From Corynebacterium kroppenstedtii (GTDB lineage: Bacteria > Actinomycetota > Actinomycetes > Mycobacteriales > Mycobacteriaceae): DNA of 64,000 nucleotides. A program made the position numbers and the translations under genes. Each line of letters opens with the position of its first letter. The first letter of the stretch is position 1. The DNA lies in the NCBI RefSeq assembly GCF_016894245.1, contig NZ_CP069792.1, positions 1,798,001 through 1,862,000 on the forward strand, read 5' to 3'. The notes under the pieces were generated by a model. That model had not been told where the DNA came from and searched no databases. It worked only from the letters and a program-made list of their open reading frames with translations. This document shows positions 20,431 through 32,352 of the stretch, in pieces.

Positions 20431-22080
20431 ATGAATTCTGACTATGAACAGGCCGATCTCGGCGTAGCCCCGGCACTTTTGGTGACCGGGTGTACCTCAG
20501 ATGCTGGCAAATCGGTTGTCGTTGCTGGCATGTGCCGGTCATTGGCACGCCGTGGTTACCGTGTCGCGCCTTTCAAGGCGCAGAACATGTCGAATAATTC
20601 GGCCGTCGTGTTAGCGACCGATTATTCCGCTGACGGGGGCGACTCGGCCCAAGGGGAGACGGAGCTCTTAACCCCAACTTCCCGCCATAAGAACAGGACC
20701 CATCTCATCGCAGGGGAAATCGGTCGGGCCCAGGCACTGCAGGCTTTTGCGGCCGGAGTGACTCCGAGCGTTGATATGAACCCAGTTTTGCTTAAGCCGG
20801 AAGCAGATCGTCGAAGCCAATTAGTCCTCCGCGGAGTAGCAACCGGTACCGTCGGCGCCCGAGACTACATTGAACACCGCACGCACCTGCGCCAGGTCAG
20901 CGCTCAGGCCTTAGAATCGCTCCGCCGCGACTATGATGTAGTTATTTGTGAAGGAGCCGGTTCCCCAGCAGAAATCAACCTCCGTCACACGGATATCGCG
21001 AACATGGGGTTGGCGGAAGCAGCGGATCTCCCTGTTGTCCTTGTCGGTGATATCGACCGCGGCGGTGTTCTCGCACACTTTTTTGGCACTTACTACATTC
21101 TCGACCCCACTGATCGCGACCGGTTCCAAGGTTTCATTGTCAACAAGTTCCGTGGGGACGTCGGCATCCTCCAGCCTGGATTGGACGAGATCACGCGTCG
21201 AACGGGCGTACCGACACTCGGTGTCATCCCATTCATTGAGGGCCTGTGGATAGATGCTGAAGATTCTCTATCGGGTGCGAGTGGGCGAGTGGGCCCGGGA
21301 CGTCCGCCTATTGGGACCGACACCATCCGGGTAGCTGCAGTTCGCCTACCTCGGGTCTCCAATAGCACCGATATTGAAGCGCTGTCATGCGAACCTGGCG
21401 TTGATGTGGAATGGACCACTTCTCCGGCGGCTATCGCCTCGGCGGATCTAGTGGTCATTCCGGGCTCAAAGTCCACTATCCACGACTTAGAGTGGTTGAA
21501 GAATACAGCAGGATCTCAGCTTCAAGAACGTTACCGTGCCGGTCGACCAATTCTAGGAATATGTGGCGGATTTCAGATGCTCTGTCACTCCATTACGGAC
21601 CCCGTCGAGTCCGGCCACTCCGAACCCATCGCAGGCTTCGATTTCCTGGACATTGATATCCAGTTTTTCCCCGAAAAAACACTGGCTAATTACGGAACAG
21701 CATTTGAGATCCATCATGGTCGAGTTGTCCGTCAAAACTGCCCAGGGTGGATCGGGCCACTTTCAGCCGGTGAAGACCCAGACAACCAGGACTCAGGCAC
21801 ACTCGTTGAGTCAGGCAACAATGCCGGCACCGCAGCACGGTACGAGGGGGCACACGAAAATGCCGTGTGGGGCACACACCGGCACGGACAGCTAGAGGTC
21901 GATTCTTTTCGGCGTCAGTTCCTTCGTGACGTTGCCCGGACACGTGGCCTATCTGGATTCGTTCCCGGACACGTCAGTTTCCATGATGCTCGCGCTGAAC
22001 AAGTCGACCGTTTAGCCGACGCCGTGGACGCAGCCTTGGGGAAAGATTGGCCCGAACGACTGAGAATCGCGACAACCTAG
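20431..22080 (+). CDS. cobQ: Cobyric acid synthase
   Basis: ATP- and glutamine-dependent amidation of adenosylcobyrinic acid a,c-diamide at four side chains, late in cobalamin synthesis. N-terminal P-loop-like segment [12 protein letters not shown] and [10 protein letters not shown], the [11 protein letters not shown] motif, and a C-terminal class I glutamine amidotransferase domain with the nucleophile Cys in [10 protein letters not shown] and a His in [10 protein letters not shown]. 549 residues; longer than usual because of about 28 extra residues between NNSAVV and [10 protein letters not shown]. The stop codon overlaps that of the convergent MFS gene (shared CTAG). It belongs functionally with the cobalamin cluster 7 kb downstream. 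Confidence 0.95.
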
Positions 22081-25554: not shown

Positions 25555-27051
25555 GTGTCAGAATCCACTGATCGCGTAGGAAAAGGCACCGATACCGATG
25601 TTGTGCTCATCGGTGCCGGAATTATCAGCTCTACGCTAAGTACTTTGCTCAAAGAGCTTCAACCGGATTGGGATCAGGTGATCCTGGAGCGTCTTGATAT
25701 TCCGGCGGGGGAGTCGTCGTCACCATGGAATAATGCTGGCACTGGCCACTCGGCGCTATGTGAACTGAACTACACGCAGGAAGTCAATGGCGACATTGAC
25801 ATTACAAAAGCGGTGAGTGTGAACGAGAAGTTCCAGATCTCTCGCCAATTCTGGAGCTACCTCATTGAGGAAAATAAGCTCGGCAATCCGCGTGAGTTCA
25901 TTAACAAGTGCCCCCACATGTCGTTCGGGCACAGCGGTGAGCAGGTCCGTTTCCTCCGTAAGCGTTTTGATGTTCTCAGCAAGCACCCCTTGTTCCCGGG
26001 GATGCATTTCACGGATGACAACGAAAAGTTCGCTGAAAAACTCCCCCTGATGGCGCGCGGCCGTGACTACACGGAACCAGTGGCGATTTCGTGGACCAAC
26101 GAGGGCACGGATATTAACTTCGGTGCTCTGACTCGCCAATATATTGACTACGTCACCCAGAATGGCGTCGAAATCCGGTATGGCAATGAGGTTCAAAACA
26201 TCTCTCGAGAGGGCAGTCACTGGAAGGTGACCTCGAAGAACCTTCACACCGGGGACACGTCGGTCATTACCGCAAACTTCGTATTCGTCGGTGCGGGCGG
26301 AATGGCCCTGCCGCTCCTGGAGAAAGCCGGTATCCCAGAAATTAAGGGCTACGGTGGTTTCCCTGTGTCCGGTGCCTGGTTGCGCTGCACCAACGAGGAC
26401 TTGATCAAGCAGCACGCTGCGAAGGTGTATGGCAAGGCGTCCGTGGGTGCTCCCCCGATGTCGGTGCCGCACTTGGATACCCGCATTATCGACGGGAAGC
26501 GTGGCCTTTTGTTCGGCCCCTACGCTGGCTGGACACCGAAGTTCCTTAAGAAGGGCAGCTTCTTGGACCTACCGAAGTCGCTGCGTCCGGGGAATATCGC
26601 GTCGCTGGTCGGCGTCGGCCTTCAGGAATTCGGCCTCACCCGTTACCTCGTGGAAGAGGTGTTGAAGAACCAGACCGCTCGTGTGGAGTCGCTCCGTGAA
26701 TACATGCCGTCGGCACGTGCCGAGGACTGGGAGCTGGTTACCGCTGGTCAGCGTGTTCAGGTCATCAAGCCGATTGGTGCGCCGAAGTTTGGTTCCTTGG
26801 AGTTCGGAACCGCGGTGATCTCGAGCAACGACGGTTCCATCGCCGGTTTGATGGGTGCTTCGCCGGGAGCTTCGATCGCTCCGTCGGCAATGATCGAACT
26901 GCTGGAGCGGTGCTTCGGCAGCAAGATGATCGAGTGGGCGCCGAAGATCAAGGAAATGGTGCCATCGTACGGCAAGTTGATGTCGCGTCACACCGATCTG
27001 TTCCATGAGCAGTGGGATCGTTCGCAGAAGGCGTTGCAGCTGGAATCCTAA
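25555..27051 (+). CDS. mqo: Malate:quinone oxidoreductase
   Basis: FAD-dependent membrane-associated enzyme that oxidises malate to oxaloacetate and passes electrons to menaquinone; in corynebacteria it is the main malate-oxidising step of the citric acid cycle. Diagnostic blocks: VVLIGAGIISSTL (FAD), PAGESSSPWNNAGTGHSALCE, and C-terminal VISSNDGSIAGLMGASPGAS. GTG at 25555 gives 498 residues, the usual size, with GAAGGA about 11 bases upstream; ATG 25543 and GTG 25528 are alternatives. Closed by a strong terminator. Confidence 0.95.
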   Translation: MSESTDRVGKGTDTDVVLIGAGIISSTLSTLLKELQPDWDQVILERLDIPAGESSSPWNNAGTGHSALCELNYTQEVNGDIDITKAVSVNEKFQISRQFWSYLIEENKLGNPREFINKCPHMSFGHSGEQVRFLRKRFDVLSKHPLFPGMHFTDDNEKFAEKLPLMARGRDYTEPVAISWTNEGTDINFGALTRQYIDYVTQNGVEIRYGNEVQNISREGSHWKVTSKNLHTGDTSVITANFVFVGAGGMALPLLEKAGIPEIKGYGGFPVSGAWLRCTNEDLIKQHAAKVYGKASVGAPPMSVPHLDTRIIDGKRGLLFGPYAGWTPKFLKKGSFLDLPKSLRPGNIASLVGVGLQEFGLTRYLVEEVLKNQTARVESLREYMPSARAEDWELVTAGQRVQVIKPIGAPKFGSLEFGTAVISSNDGSIAGLMGASPGASIAPSAMIELLERCFGSKMIEWAPKIKEMVPSYGKLMSRHTDLFHEQWDRSQKALQLES

Positions 27052-27064
27052 ACGGCTATTGAGC

Positions 27065-27104
27065 ACGGCCTGGAATCGGTGAATGTTCGGTTCCGGGCCG
27101 TTTT
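27065..27104 (+). terminator. Terminator after mqo
   Basis: ACGGCCTGGAA (27065-27075) pairs with TTCCGGGCCGT (27091-27101), one G-T pair included, followed by TTTT. Confidence 0.8.
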
Positions 27105-27189
27105 CTCGTGTCTTTCACTTGTCGCATCCTGGTGTTTATTATCAGTGGCGGTAAACCGTTCACGGTAGGAAGCCTCTAGAGTAGGAAGT

Positions 27190-28365
27190 ATGTTGCCTTC
27201 GTCACACAGCGTTTCGCTTTTCCCCTTCAGTGCCGTGGTTGGGCAGGACCAACTGAAATTAGCGCTGATCTTGACCGCTATTTCTCCCCGCATCGGCGGT
27301 GTCGTTGTTAGAGGCGAAAAAGGCACGGCTAAGACGACGACAGTTCGCGCTTTCTCCCGGATGCTTCCGGACCCGAAGGCGAAGGTTGTTAACCTCCCGT
27401 TGGGTGCAACAGAAGACCGTGTGGTGGGCTCTATTGATGTCGAGCGTGTTCTGACAACAGGCCATGCTGAATACCAGCCCGGCTTGCTCAGTGAAGCAAA
27501 CGGGGGAGTGCTGTATGTCGATGAAATCAACCTGCTGGCGGACCATTTAGTCGATATCATTCTCGACGCTGCCGCAACTGGCCATATCAGCATCGAACGC
27601 GACGCAGTGTCCCACACTGAGGACACCGACTTTGTCCTCGTCGGCACGATGAACCCGGAAGAAGGGGAGTTGCGCCCCCAGCTCTTGGACCGGTTTGGTT
27701 TGGCTGTCGACGTTTCCGCGCCGCGTGACACGAAGTCGCGGACGGAAGTAATGCGCCGGCGCTTGGCCTTCGATGAGAACCCCGAGGAATTCCTCGAGCA
27801 GTGGGCCGATGCCGAGAGGGACATCGCAACGCGCATTGTCGCTGCTAAAGAGCGTGTGACAGGAGTAGAACTCACCGACGTCGTCTTGGGGCGAATCGCA
27901 TCCATCTGTGCATCTTTTGATGTCGATGGCATGCGCGCAGACCTCGTGATTGCCCGTGCCGCCGCCGCCCATGCTGCCTGGGAAGGCCGGACAACGATCA
28001 AGGACTCGGACATTAAAGTCGCGGCCGAGTTGGCGCTCCCGCACCGACGTCGGGACCCCTTCGATTCCCCTGATATCAGCGACGACGAGCTCGACGAAGC
28101 GTTGGACCGCGCACGTGACGAGGTCCCCGATGAACCGGATGACGACTCCGCGCCGGACAACACCGAGGACAGTGATGGTGACGTCGATACTAACGATGTC
28201 GACGACCCCACCAGCGACGATGGCCACTCGGATGAGACCCCTGACCCCAGCGCTGAGCAGCCCACACCGCAGCAGAACAAGTCCGATGCAGATAACGATG
28301 ACAACCGCGGTCCGGCACCGCAGGAAGGAGGCCGCGCCGCCCAGGGCGCGCCCTTTCGTCGCTAG
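27190..28365 (+). CDS. Mg/Co-chelatase AAA+ subunit (ChlI-like part of split chlD)
   Basis: The zero-frame product is 391 residues. Residues 1 to about 290 form the AAA+ domain: Walker [11 protein letters not shown], Walker [11 protein letters not shown], the sensor-1 segment [19 protein letters not shown], and the [10 protein letters not shown] end. An Asp/Glu/Pro-rich linker (about 295-375) follows and the frame stops at UAG 28363-28365, right after GAPFRR. In relatives such as Rv2850c the protein goes on into an integrin-like domain, which here lies in the +1 frame. The short product resembles a chelatase small subunit (BchI/ChlI). With CobN it would insert cobalt into hydrogenobyrinic acid diamide. 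No cobN and no separate chlI is present in this window. First gene of the cobalamin cluster chlD-cobO-cobB-sumT. Confidence 0.85.
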
Positions 28366-28366
28366 G
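28322..28366 (+). promoter_or_regulatory. Candidate +1 frameshift site in chelatase gene
   Basis: Zero frame reads GCG CCC TTT CGT CGC TAG. Skipping one base at CCC-T or TTT-C gives [11 protein letters not shown] and enters the downstream frame. Upstream is a perfect anti-SD-like AGGAAGGAGG (28322-28331), 19 bases before CCC, and a short stem GCGCC/GGCGC just before the site. These fit programmed recoding, though the spacing is longer than in prfB. A one-base sequencing error in the C or T run is the alternative. Confidence 0.45.
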
Positions 28367-29146
28367 CTTGTTCAGCTTCAGAAGTTAGGCCAGGTCGAAT
28401 CCACCGCGCTGGGGCGACGATCGCATGCCATCTCAGCGCACGGCTCAACTATCCGAGCAGTACGAGACGGTCACGGTTTCAACGTCGTGGGGACGGTCCT
28501 CGCCGCGGCAGATCGTGGAGCGCGGATCGACAATCACACTCACCGTGTTCCTCTGGAATCGAATGACGTGCGCGGAAGCGTTCGTCGTGGATCGGAAGCA
28601 AACCTCGTCGTGTTCCTCGTCGATGCCTCGGGGTCGATGGCAGCACGCGACCGTCTCTCAGCTGTGACAGGAGCGATTATGTCGATGCTAACCGACGCTT
28701 ACCAGCGCCGCGACAAGGTCGCCGTGATCACTATCCATGGGTCAGAAGCAACAGTCGTTCTTCCGCCTACACGGTCGATCACGATCGCTGCTCGTCGTTT
28801 AGCCGATGTCAAAATAGGTGGACGTACCCCGTTGGCCGCCGGGCTCGATAAAGCTTATGAGCTAATTACCCGCGAGCATTATCGCGAGCCTGGCCGTAGA
28901 GCTATCCTCATGTGTCTGTCGGACGGACGCGCAAATGGCAAAGGTGGTCTGGCTGCTGCCGAGGTAGCAGCTCGTCGTATCGCTCGCCGAGGGCTTGTAG
29001 GGAGCGTTGTCATCGATTGTGAACGCCCAGGCCGGGTGCGATTAGGTTTAGCATCACGACTAGCAGCGAACCTCCATGCCCCGTGTGTTCGGTTAGATGA
29101 GTTGTCGGCCGATAACCTAGGTGGAGTCATCAAGACGGTGAGCTAA
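28354..29146 (+). CDS. Mg/Co-chelatase von Willebrand (integrin I) part of split chlD
   Basis: The +1 frame from about 28352 encodes 263 residues that complete the chelatase medium subunit. A linker with [12 protein letters not shown] and GRRSHAIS leads to the metal-ion-dependent adhesion site of an integrin I domain: DASGS in [13 protein letters not shown], the Thr of [10 protein letters not shown] and the Asp of MCLSDGRAN. No convincing start codon or separate function is seen for this part, so it is most simply made by frameshifting from the upstream frame, giving one protein of about 651 residues (Rv2850c, its apparent counterpart, has about 630). The frame is also open upstream to 27950 but that stretch is an out-of-frame shadow of the AAA+ part. 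Confidence 0.8.
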
Positions 29147-29283
29147 AGCGACGACTCTGCTCAGCTCCGAGTAGACGCAGCGATAATTGCATAGACGCAC
29201 GCTCGCAGACTAGATTGTGAAAGCCCTGGTCAGGCGCGTTGATGGAGCACAGGCAACGACAGTCACCGAGGAGAAAGACGACA

Positions 29284-29904
29284 ATGCCCAAAGGAAAAGT
29301 TGATCCCGCAAACATCCCCAATGACGGATTAACGACACGACAACGACGGATGCTCCCCGTCACCGCAGTCAACACTGGCGATGGCAAAGGAAAATCCACA
29401 GCCGCTTTCGGCATGGCCCTGCGCGCGTGGAACCAAGGAATGAACATCGGCGTCTTCCAGTTCGTCAAATCGGCGAAATGGCGAGTCGGCGAGGAAGCCG
29501 TCTTCCGGAAACTTGGGGAGCTCCACGACGAGACTGGTGTCGGCGGACCCGTCGAATGGCACAAAATGGGAGAAGGATGGTCATGGTCTCGGACTAAGGG
29601 AACCGAAGACGACCACGCACGCAATGCCCTCGATGGGTGGCATGAGGTTGCCCGACGGCTTCACGAGGAAACCCACGACTTTTATGTTCTTGACGAATTT
29701 ACCTATCCCATGGCATGGGGATGGGTTCCTGTCGAGGAAGTAGCCGAGACACTCCGGAACCGCCCTGGAACCCAACACGTCGTTATTACGGGCCGGCGAG
29801 CACCCCAAGAGATCATTGACGTAGCCGACCTTGTGACCAAGATGGAGAAAATCAAGCATCCCATGGATCAAGGAAGAAAAGGTCAGAAAGGTATCGAGTG
29901 GTAA
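29284..29904 (+). CDS. cobO: Cob(I)yrinic acid a,c-diamide adenosyltransferase
   Basis: Transfers the 5'-deoxyadenosyl group of ATP to reduced cobalt of corrinoids. CobA/CobO-type P-loop GDGKGKS is at residues 32-38, followed by RAWNQGMNIGVFQFVK and the DEFTYPMAWGW segment. 206 residues, normal. The ATG at 29284 has a GAGGAGAAAG ribosome binding site; the open frame runs back to 29239. It lies between the chelatase gene and cobB, the same order as in Mycobacterium, and overlaps cobB by 7 bases. Confidence 0.95.
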   Translation: MPKGKVDPANIPNDGLTTRQRRMLPVTAVNTGDGKGKSTAAFGMALRAWNQGMNIGVFQFVKSAKWRVGEEAVFRKLGELHDETGVGGPVEWHKMGEGWSWSRTKGTEDDHARNALDGWHEVARRLHEETHDFYVLDEFTYPMAWGWVPVEEVAETLRNRPGTQHVVITGRRAPQEIIDVADLVTKMEKIKHPMDQGRKGQKGIEW

Positions 29905-31421
29905 ACACCCAAGATACGGGCGCGCCGGGACTCGTCATTGCCGGTTCAGCCTCTGGGACGGGAAAGACGACGCTTGCCACTGGTCTGATGGCGGCATTGA
30001 GCCGACGCCATGTTGTTGCACCGTTTAAAGTGGGCCCCGACTACATTGACCCTGGTTACCATGGTGTAGCCACGGGACGGCCGGGACGTAACCTCGATTC
30101 AGTCATGTGTGGAACCGACCGTATAGCACCGTTGTATCGTCACGGCTCATTGGGCGCGGATATTGCTGTGGTGGAAGGTGTGATGGGTCTTTTCGACGGT
30201 AGAATCCCGGCCTTGTCCTCGCACGGTAGAGACAAAAGTAGTGCAGTGGACAGCGGTTCCCTTGCTAGCGGCTCCACGGCCGAAGTGGCGAGGCTAGTTG
30301 GCCTTCCTGTCGTTCTCGTCATTGATGTCCGAGGCATGAGTCAGTCGGTCGGAGCCGTCGTGAAAGGTTTTATGACTCTGGATCCGGATGTGACCATCGC
30401 TGGCGTGATCTTGAATCGAGTGGGTTCCACTAGACACACGGCTGTCGCGACGAAAGCGGTCGAAGAGCAGGGGGTCCCAGTTATTGGTGCGGTTCCGCGT
30501 GCCGTCGATGTTGAGGTGCCTAGTCGGCATTTGGGGCTAATCACGACGTCTGAGTGGAGTGCGGAAGCGCAAGAAGCTGTCGACCATATGGCAGACATGG
30601 TGGAAGACTCTGTTGACCTGGACGCTGTGCGCGCCCTGGCTACACCGCCCGCGCCGGGCCCGGTGTGGAATCCTGCTGAGGAGATAAAGCAGTACCCTTC
30701 GCCTACGACGCATCACCACCCTGGCGCGGGTTCTTGTCGCCAACGACCATTGATTGCCATGGTTGGTGGGCCAGCATTTAGCTTCTCATACGCAGAGCAT
30801 CGGGAACTGCTCGACGCAGCAGGTGCTGATGTCATTGATGTGGATCCGTTGGGGGATGAAGAAACGGCGTGCGATGCTGTCCGGCGATCTGACGGGATTA
30901 TCATCCCTGGAGGTTTTCCGGAAGAGCATGTGAAGGAGCTGTCCTCGAGACGACACTTAGCTCAGCTCATCCGTGAATCAGCGAATTGCCATCGTCCTAT
31001 TCACGCCGAGTGCGCTGGGTTGTTGTGGCTCCTTGAGAGTTTGGAAGGCTATCCCATGTGTGGGGTATTTCCGGCATCCGCACATATGAACAAGCGGGTG
31101 ACCCTTGGCTACCGAGAAGCTACTGCTACACAGTCGTCAGTGTTATGGCATCACGGGGATCGACTTATTGGTCACGAATTCCACCACACATCCCTCGTCA
31201 TTGACGACGTTGCTACGGGGGGTTCGACTGATCCGTCAGAACATCAGTCTGCGTGGACGTGGACCGGGTGGGACGGCCACAATGTCTACGAAGGTTGGGT
31301 GCGCAACAACATTCACGCGTCGTATTTGCATACCCATCCCGCCGCCATGCCCAGCGCTATCGTTCATTTTGTCGACGCTTGCCGCGAGTTTCACGATGAG
31401 CAGGCGTCGCATTGTGCGTGA
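29898..31421 (+). CDS. cobB: Hydrogenobyrinic acid / cobyrinic acid a,c-diamide synthase
   Basis: Glutamine-dependent amidation of the a and c side chains of the corrin ring. P-loop SASGTGKTT at 17-25, KVGPDYIDPGYH, then a C-terminal class I amidotransferase domain whose nucleophile Cys is in HAECAGLLWL (about residue 372), with YLHTHPAAMP near the end. 507 residues. The GTG start overlaps the cobO stop, so translation is probably coupled. Together with cobO and the chelatase it forms the middle of the cobalt-insertion and amidation steps; whether the pathway starts from an aerobic or anaerobic ring contraction cannot be decided here. Confidence 0.93.
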   Translation: MVNTQDTGAPGLVIAGSASGTGKTTLATGLMAALSRRHVVAPFKVGPDYIDPGYHGVATGRPGRNLDSVMCGTDRIAPLYRHGSLGADIAVVEGVMGLFDGRIPALSSHGRDKSSAVDSGSLASGSTAEVARLVGLPVVLVIDVRGMSQSVGAVVKGFMTLDPDVTIAGVILNRVGSTRHTAVATKAVEEQGVPVIGAVPRAVDVEVPSRHLGLITTSEWSAEAQEAVDHMADMVEDSVDLDAVRALATPPAPGPVWNPAEEIKQYPSPTTHHHPGAGSCRQRPLIAMVGGPAFSFSYAEHRELLDAAGADVIDVDPLGDEETACDAVRRSDGIIIPGGFPEEHVKELSSRRHLAQLIRESANCHRPIHAECAGLLWLLESLEGYPMCGVFPASAHMNKRVTLGYREATATQSSVLWHHGDRLIGHEFHHTSLVIDDVATGGSTDPSEHQSAWTWTGWDGHNVYEGWVRNNIHASYLHTHPAAMPSAIVHFVDACREFHDEQASHCA

Positions 31422-31557
31422 GCTGTTCCCGCATCGTGCTTGAGCTGCCGCGGTACGCGTGAGCCGTCGCCTCGTCGATAATGGCGACAACCTGCGCACA
31501 CAGCCAACCCATCCACCAGCGTCAGCCCCCAACGAGACCGAGACTAAGCTGAAGGCT

Positions 31558-32352
31558 ATGACCGATTTGCCACCAGTGACCCTTCGACCGCTGCCGTCGG
31601 AGACTATCAGCGATATCCGAGGACAGCTTCGTGGAACAGTTGCCTTAGTCGGTGGTGGCCCAGGCGATCCAGGTCTGATCTCGTACCGTGGATATCAATA
31701 TGTGGGGGCCGCGGACGTCATCTTGATCGACCACTTAGCACCTGATCTCTCGCCAATCATTCCCCCTGATTGCGAAGTTATTGATGTGGCAAAGTTGCCG
31801 TATCGAAAGTCGGTAGCCCAGGAAAAAATCAACTCGATGCTGGTTGAACACGCAGAAGCCGGTGAATTTGTCGTCCGACTGAAGGGCGGAGACCCCTTCA
31901 TTTTCGGTCGTGGGCTCGAAGAGCAAGAGTACTGCGAAGAGCAGCATGTGTCGGTCACGGTCGTCCCGGGTATAACAAGCCCCATTGCTGTTCCTGAAAC
32001 TGCCGGCGTGTCCGTGACTCAACGCGGTGTGACTCATGATTTCACCGTGGTGTCAGGTCACGTGCCGCCCGGGCACCCCAAGTCACTCGTGAATTGGGAA
32101 GCATTAGGCCACATGAGAGGCACAATTTGTATCATCATGGGCGTGAAAAATGGTGGCGCCATTGCCCAAGCGCTGATGGATGCAGGTCGTGATCCTGAAA
32201 CCCCAGCCTTTGTTACCCAAGAAGGAACGACGTCCAACGAACGATCGATTGCGACGACGTTGGCCTCATTAGGGCAAGTGCTGGAAAACGTCGATCCGCC
32301 GGCGGTGATTGTCATCGGCGACGTCGCGGTACCGCGTCCCCACGCAGAATAG
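31558..32352 (+). CDS. cobA: Uroporphyrinogen-III C-methyltransferase
   Basis: Methylates uroporphyrinogen III at C2 and C7 to precorrin-2, the entry to cobalamin and siroheme. Signature VGGGPGDPGLIS at 31-42, VVRLKGGDPFIFGRG, VVPGITSPIAVPE and GTTSNERSIATTL. 264 residues; a single-domain SUMT without the CysG dehydrogenase or UroD fusion. The ATG at 31558 follows TAAGCT (31545-31550) by 7 bases; the frame is open from 31459. It may have its own promoter despite lying in line with cobB. A weak GAAGG is also present near the ATG. Confidence 0.93.
   Translation: MTDLPPVTLRPLPSETISDIRGQLRGTVALVGGGPGDPGLISYRGYQYVGAADVILIDHLAPDLSPIIPPDCEVIDVAKLPYRKSVAQEKINSMLVEHAEAGEFVVRLKGGDPFIFGRGLEEQEYCEEQHVSVTVVPGITSPIAVPETAGVSVTQRGVTHDFTVVSGHVPPGHPKSLVNWEALGHMRGTICIIMGVKNGGAIAQALMDAGRDPETPAFVTQEGTTSNERSIATTLASLGQVLENVDPPAVIVIGDVAVPRPHAE

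Follow-up and report, generated by a model that had tools for sequence, protein, structure and literature searches.

A genus-wide +1 frame break in chlD of Corynebacterium and a candidate upstream hairpin signal for programmed frameshifting

The chlD gene of Corynebacterium kroppenstedtii is divided between two reading frames, which raises the question of whether the break is a fault in the sequence, a mark of decay, a boundary between two genes, or a signal by which ribosomes obtain two proteins from one message. The gene lies in a 64,000-nucleotide stretch of DNA, referred to below as the window, from a genome that consists of a single contig of 2,483,614 bases. A first-pass annotation had placed the break between the AAA+ and von Willebrand (VWA) halves of the protein, with the zero-frame stop at 28363-28365, AGGAAGGAGG at 28322-28331 and a CCC TTT C at the site; all of these hold, CCC TTT C lying at 28351-28357. 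The zero frame runs on the forward strand from the ATG at 27190 to the TAG (27190..28365, 391 aa), and encodes the AAA+ half with an acidic linker, the predicted short, ChlI-like product. Past the shift, the +1 frame (28358..29146, forward strand) encodes the BchD-type VWA half, which stays open up to 29146 and would form the end part of the predicted long product. Sequence comparison confirmed the identity of both halves: the first matched AAA+ proteins of the ChlI/BchI type and the second the VWA part of BchD, the nearest solved structures by sequence being the 38 kDa (1g8p) and 60 kDa (2x31) subunits of Mg-chelatase, respectively. The gene belongs to a vitamin B12 cluster. Its downstream neighbours, all on the forward strand, are genes for cob(I)yrinic acid a,c-diamide adenosyltransferase (29281..29904), cobB (29898..31421) and cobA, uroporphyrinogen-III methyltransferase (31459..32352); cobQ is found in the same window at 20431-22080.

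A survey of 242 Corynebacterium genomes gave 74 that hold the VWA half at E ≤ 1e-20, and all 74 loci were examined. The gene was split between its AAA+ and VWA halves in 72 of them, with a clean +1 offset of the second half in 71. The remaining split gene (G113) carries a shift site of the usual kind and a second half offset by 2; the match to its C half (locus L156) begins only at residue 70 and lies in another frame, and a second break is likely. The second half was in frame in two genomes, G125 and G014, the latter holding a distant copy. One C. xerosis record (L006) duplicates genome G237 and was omitted from the counts of 71; as the species are not independent, conservation counts are given without probabilities. 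The two halves lie in overlapping frames, as in the fs-chlD genes described previously, and the overlap is 60 nt or less in 29 of the 71 species. It is shortest in G194 (20 nt), where the +1 frame opens 8 nt 5' of the TTT and the zero-frame stop falls 9 nt past the first base of TTT.

These observations bear on the simplest explanation, that the break is a sequencing error or belongs to a decaying pseudogene. Two other frame breaks, at A-runs, had been mentioned within the window, and the apparent second break of G113 fits the same explanation, but an identical site in 71 clean cases across the genus, with both halves open and alike, leaves it with practically no credit. This conservation already refutes both notions: the chlD sequence is correct at the split, and the gene is not decaying. 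The alignment across related species that had been proposed as a check thus came out in favour of a conserved split and shift site.

For comparison outside the genus, the best 80 of 588 loci matching the first half were taken. In 76 of these, from other actinobacteria, both halves were in one frame; one was a C. xerosis locus with the +1 offset, and in three (L026, L032 and L037) the second half was not seen within the stretch examined. From the 76 relatives and the G125 gene, 52 fused genes could be anchored on a Phe or Tyr codon at the position of the shift.

The putative shift site, TTT C (28354..28357, forward strand), is the same in 71 of 71 species, and is thus kept across species as in fs-chlD; only 344 of the 833 other Phe codons of these genes are TTT. 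TTTC by itself is not special, being found in 11 of the 52 anchored in-frame relatives, which as a group are without a hairpin or Shine-Dalgarno (SD) stretch of the kind described below. The codon 5' of the shift codon, CCC in the window (28351..28353, forward strand), is CCC in 56, CAG in 8, ACC in 5 and CGA in 2 of the 71 species, and the codon following TTT is CGC in 47, CGT in 16, CCA in 3, CGA in 2, CTC in 2 and CAC in 1. The first-pass annotation had counted a stop two codons after TTT as part of the site. Such a stop is present here (TAG, 28363..28365, forward strand), but its distance from TTT ranges from 3 to 18 codons among the species, and the stop was therefore rejected as a constant part of the signal. 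An early stop nevertheless seems to be selected: where the +1-frame codon whose first two bases complete it encodes Arg, that codon is AGR in 33 of 59 cases, compared with 7.6% of 4085 other Arg codons in the same genes (binomial p 5e-22, with species not independent). Other causes of this bias are possible.

Three other routes to the second frame were considered and set aside. Slippage on the codon before TTT as a general mechanism is argued against by the 8 CAG and 2 CGA variants. A -2 shift would also lead into that frame, at the cost of an extra residue where, in the alignment, the in-frame G125 gene has a single Phe. As to transcriptional slippage, the longest run of A or T between -30 and +20 is 3 in 62 species, 4 in 7 and 5 in 2 (n=71).

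For the study of flanking elements, sites were aligned on TTTC. The alignment was gapless over 48 nt, and after removal of five identical rows comprised 67 distinct sequences from 72 loci, L006 included. The elements follow one another in the same order: 5'-most is an SD-like stretch, then comes a hairpin of 18 nt (-21 to -4), and a single codon separates the hairpin from TTT C. The SD-like stretch (28322..28331, forward strand) lies 22 nt from TTT on the linear sequence and about 3-4 nt from it with the hairpin folded away. Pairing of the region from -38 to -22 was computed against a 16S 3' end sequence that occurs three times in the source genome, and reached -8 kcal/mol or lower in 66 of 67 distinct sites, compared with 11.9% of 3350 control stretches. 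The residues encoded by this stretch vary (TGKVG, DGEVG, PQEGG, DGQEE and others).

So strong an SD-like stretch could also mean that the VWA half is a separate gene with its own, or translationally coupled, initiation, and in 35 of 71 species a start codon does occur in the +1 frame within 46 nt past the site. We regard this as very improbable. No ATG, GTG or TTG is present in the +1 frame between -23 and +63 in 34 of the 71; a start codon at -20 to -4 is found in only 4; and the positions are inconsistent. Moreover, separate initiation would leave unexplained both TTT C and the residue-by-residue continuity with the fused relatives. With no constant start codon, an own start for the VWA half was rejected.

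The hairpin was absent from the first-pass annotation and was found in the present analysis. In the window its arms lie at 28333-28338 and 28345-28350 with a loop of 6 (28333..28350, forward strand), so that it ends one codon 5' of the shift codon. Stem runs of 4 bp or more were present in 67 of 67 distinct sites and in 3.6% of 4752 control windows from the same genes; for at least 5 bp the values were 61 of 67 and 0.7%. The mean folding energy of 24-nt segments was -11.2 kcal/mol at the hairpin, compared with -2.6 to -4.8 across -150 to -30. Downstream structure was rejected as a component of the signal, the mean 24-nt energy reaching only -6.1 and -6.4 near +33 and +78, with the minimum upstream. 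The 24-nt element of the window itself folds at -15.6 kcal/mol (z -1.9) and its 48-nt cassette at -24.8 (z -2.1); over 121 nt the folding is ordinary (z 0.17). The 48-nt fold pairs part of the SD stretch with CCCUUUC; this longer stem is not favoured because eight species carry CAG instead of CCC. In the anchored fused relatives stem runs were 3 bp or shorter in 51 of 52, with a mean energy of -6.3 and a median SD pairing of -3.5, and as a group these genes are without the hairpin and SD stretch of the corynebacterial kind.

Covariation in the hairpin was modest. Compared with 500 shuffles, the proportion of paired cells (78.9 vs 73.6%), the number of double-change cells (21 vs 11.3) and the covariation score (0.143 vs 0.109) were never reached by the shuffled alignments; the number of doubly changed pairs (2 vs 2.4) and of further pair types (10 vs 10.9), two of the five measures, were not above them. 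RNAalifold gave no double change among the four core stem pairs, and 46 of the 67 distinct sites leave the outermost pair open. Since the core stem bases fall within invariant Ala and Gly codons, and covariation of the core pairs is weak, the +1 shift might be real and the hairpin a side effect of the coding for a conserved peptide, with only the SD stretch or TTT C being of consequence. This is possible but doubtful, for the outer and loop-closing pairs vary on both sides (the 21 double-change cells noted above), stems of differing make-up all pair, and the fused relatives have the short runs given above.

Rfam gave no match across 27000-29500. A model of the site (R1) recovered 69 of the 71 clean chlD sites, missing G192 and G193, and likewise missed that of G113. 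Elsewhere in the 242 Corynebacterium genomes it gave five matches at about chance level (E 0.018-0.099; G015, G056, G033, G224 and G163). In 397 genomes of the order it gave nine, namely four Corynebacterium chlD sites and five weak matches (E 0.004-0.048) at loci resembling neither chlD half.

Taken together, the overlapping frames, the invariant TTT C, and a hairpin and SD-like stretch that stand at fixed places and that in-frame relatives lack make a programmed +1 ribosomal frameshift inside chlD very probable. Counted against it are the modest covariation, the overlap of the stem with invariant Ala and Gly codons, and the A-site codon, mostly CGC or CGT, which offers no obvious pause. The idea of a corynebacterial signal of its own type, raised in the first-pass annotation, is strongly supported by the genus-wide conservation. 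We envisage that some ribosomes would continue past TTT and soon stop, releasing a ChlI-like AAA+ protein of 391 aa, while in others the peptidyl-tRNA-Phe would slip from UUU to UUC and translate on in the +1 frame to yield a ChlD of about 651 aa. The anticodon of tRNA-Phe, GAA, finds a better match in UUC than in UUU, and good pairing is thus retained after a +1 slip; the next codon being CGC in 47 or CGT in 16 of 71, no stop holds the ribosome. The push would come from behind, and in either of two ways: the hairpin may act as an SD duplex beside the E-site codon, or by folding it may remove 18 nt and bring the SD stretch to within 3-4 nt of UUU. The short and long products would then act with CobN as a cobaltochelatase.

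The premise that no separate chlI exists fails in the source genome, which encodes a 311-aa ChlI within a second chelatase operon (BchH-ChlI-ChlD) away from the split chlD, so that the lack of a separate small-subunit gene, one of the marks of fs-chlD, does not apply to it. In that operon BchH-like, ChlI and ChlD genes lie side by side at G000:C1:2460500-2474000 (L116 1323-8065), apart from CobN and the split chlD. The suggested genome search for cobN was borne out, as a separate CobN is encoded. Among the 72 frameshifted genomes, 61 had no second small-subunit-like match at E ≤ 1e-30; the 11 that had one are the same 11 that have a second, BchH-like large subunit, and two of these second ChlI matches contain an internal stop.

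In an even pick of 298 genomes at the level of the order, 235 matched the first half at E ≤ 1e-30, four of them Corynebacterium. The other 231 had exactly one chlD-like match each, in open frames of at least 508 codons among the matches listed. These 231 genomes suggest that a chelatase can sometimes do without a separate small subunit, and the absence of chlI by itself therefore does not demand a frameshift. CobN was above the cut-off in 58 of the 72 frameshifted genomes. Of the 14 without it, G190 is only 53% complete; the other 13 are near-complete and none has cobB over the cut-off. Those that keep the split chlD and its signal without CobN or cobB are G023, G034, G038, G042, G046, G057, G065, G066, G084, G163, G164, G205 and G214. 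In CobN-less G042, chlD adjoins cobA. In two others partial cobB-like matches lie a few kb from chlD (G046:C1:1856788-1857171 and G205:C3:30875-31255), and are perhaps remnants of a lost B12 cluster.

The 231 single-match genomes, the source genome's own ChlI and the 13 CobN-less genomes all count against the two-subunit reading. Other genera manage with a single fused protein and lack a further ChlI-like match, which would suit a frameshift that serves as a regulatory switch on the amount of ChlD, as in prfB, with a short protein that has no role of its own. We consider such a switch unlikely. The early zero-frame stop seems to be selected, and in G125 the in-frame chlD is accompanied by a separate AAA+ gene, though either may have other causes. 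The G125 chlD is single-framed at the shift point with one Phe there; the fused gene (L164 3538-5358) adjoins mqo and an adenosyltransferase gene, and the separate AAA+ protein (339 aa; L164 10649-11668) is encoded next to cobA and is 67% identical to the first half in the window. The small- and medium-subunit jobs thus seem to be divided between two genes in G125, which suggests, without proving, that both frameshift products are in use. We infer that the one chlD gene may yield two functional subunits.

The origin of the frameshift was approached through a tree of 119 first halves, sampling 40 frameshifted rows. A branch (100/99) separated the 76 sequences from other genera from the Corynebacterium first halves, the two from G125 included. 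The tree is unrooted; rooting with the ChlI of BchHID was abandoned owing to too long an outgroup branch. In-frame genes are spread over genera ranging from Streptomyces and Kribbella to Nocardia and Mycobacterium, which is most simply read as one origin of the frameshift, in the Corynebacterium stem. The fullest account, for and against which we find the case evenly balanced, would be a natural, genus-wide +1 signal acting from behind, in which a small hairpin beside the E-site codon, with the SD stretch at its foot, moves tRNA-Phe from UUU to UUC while the A site holds a sense codon. An actinobacterial chlD read in one frame would have acquired the signal once, in the stem lineage of Corynebacterium, and so have come to encode two subunits where it had made a single product; G125 would have reversed this by assigning the two tasks to separate genes.

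Frameshifting in chlD, and with it the idea of small and medium subunits from one gene, has been published by Antonov and colleagues (PMC9227772, PMC3711429), and the fs-chlD of their 2013, 2020 and 2022 papers agrees with the present case in the gene, the AAA+/VWA break and the proposed subunits. The signals differ. The fs-chlD cluster tested in 2013 uses a -1 shift (PMC3711429), a 2016 review gives A_AAA_AAR as the chlD shift site (PMC5009743), and the 2022 paper describes -1 shifts as the more frequent, associated with slippery sites rich in AT and with structures downstream (PMC9227772). Here, in contrast, the offset is +1, the site is NNN TTT C and the stimulators lie upstream. The anatomy of the corynebacterial site was not found in the literature searched, which excluded the main 2020 Mol Biol Evol paper.

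In mechanism there is a likeness to prfB, with a +1 slip in the P site and an internal SD-type duplex behind it. Two differences stand out. The codon that enters the A site here is a sense codon (CGC in 47 and CGT in 16 of 71) and not a stop, and the SD stretch, at 3-4 nt with the hairpin folded, is otherwise 22 nt from the shift codon, while the SD element of prfB in E. coli lies 3 nt from the shift codon.

On 70S ribosomes, an upstream hairpin juxtaposed to the shift site stimulates +1 frameshifting with about 60% of the strength of an internal SD (PMC6321510). That effect (Huang, Cho and Chang 2018) was obtained with a designed 12-bp stem at CUUUGA, only without RF2, and in the text found on such stimulation it is described for designed constructs (PMC6321510). 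The corynebacterial hairpin likewise lies next to the shift site on its 5' side and may act as an SD duplex does; it differs in being a natural stem of 4-7 bp, accompanied by an SD-like stretch and followed by sense codons. If the proposed reading is correct, chlD of Corynebacterium would offer a bacterial example, in a natural gene, of +1 shifting stimulated by a hairpin on the upstream side. Its apparent derivation within one lineage would also bear on the view, put forward in PMC9227772, that chlD frameshift signals spread by horizontal transfer rather than evolving again.
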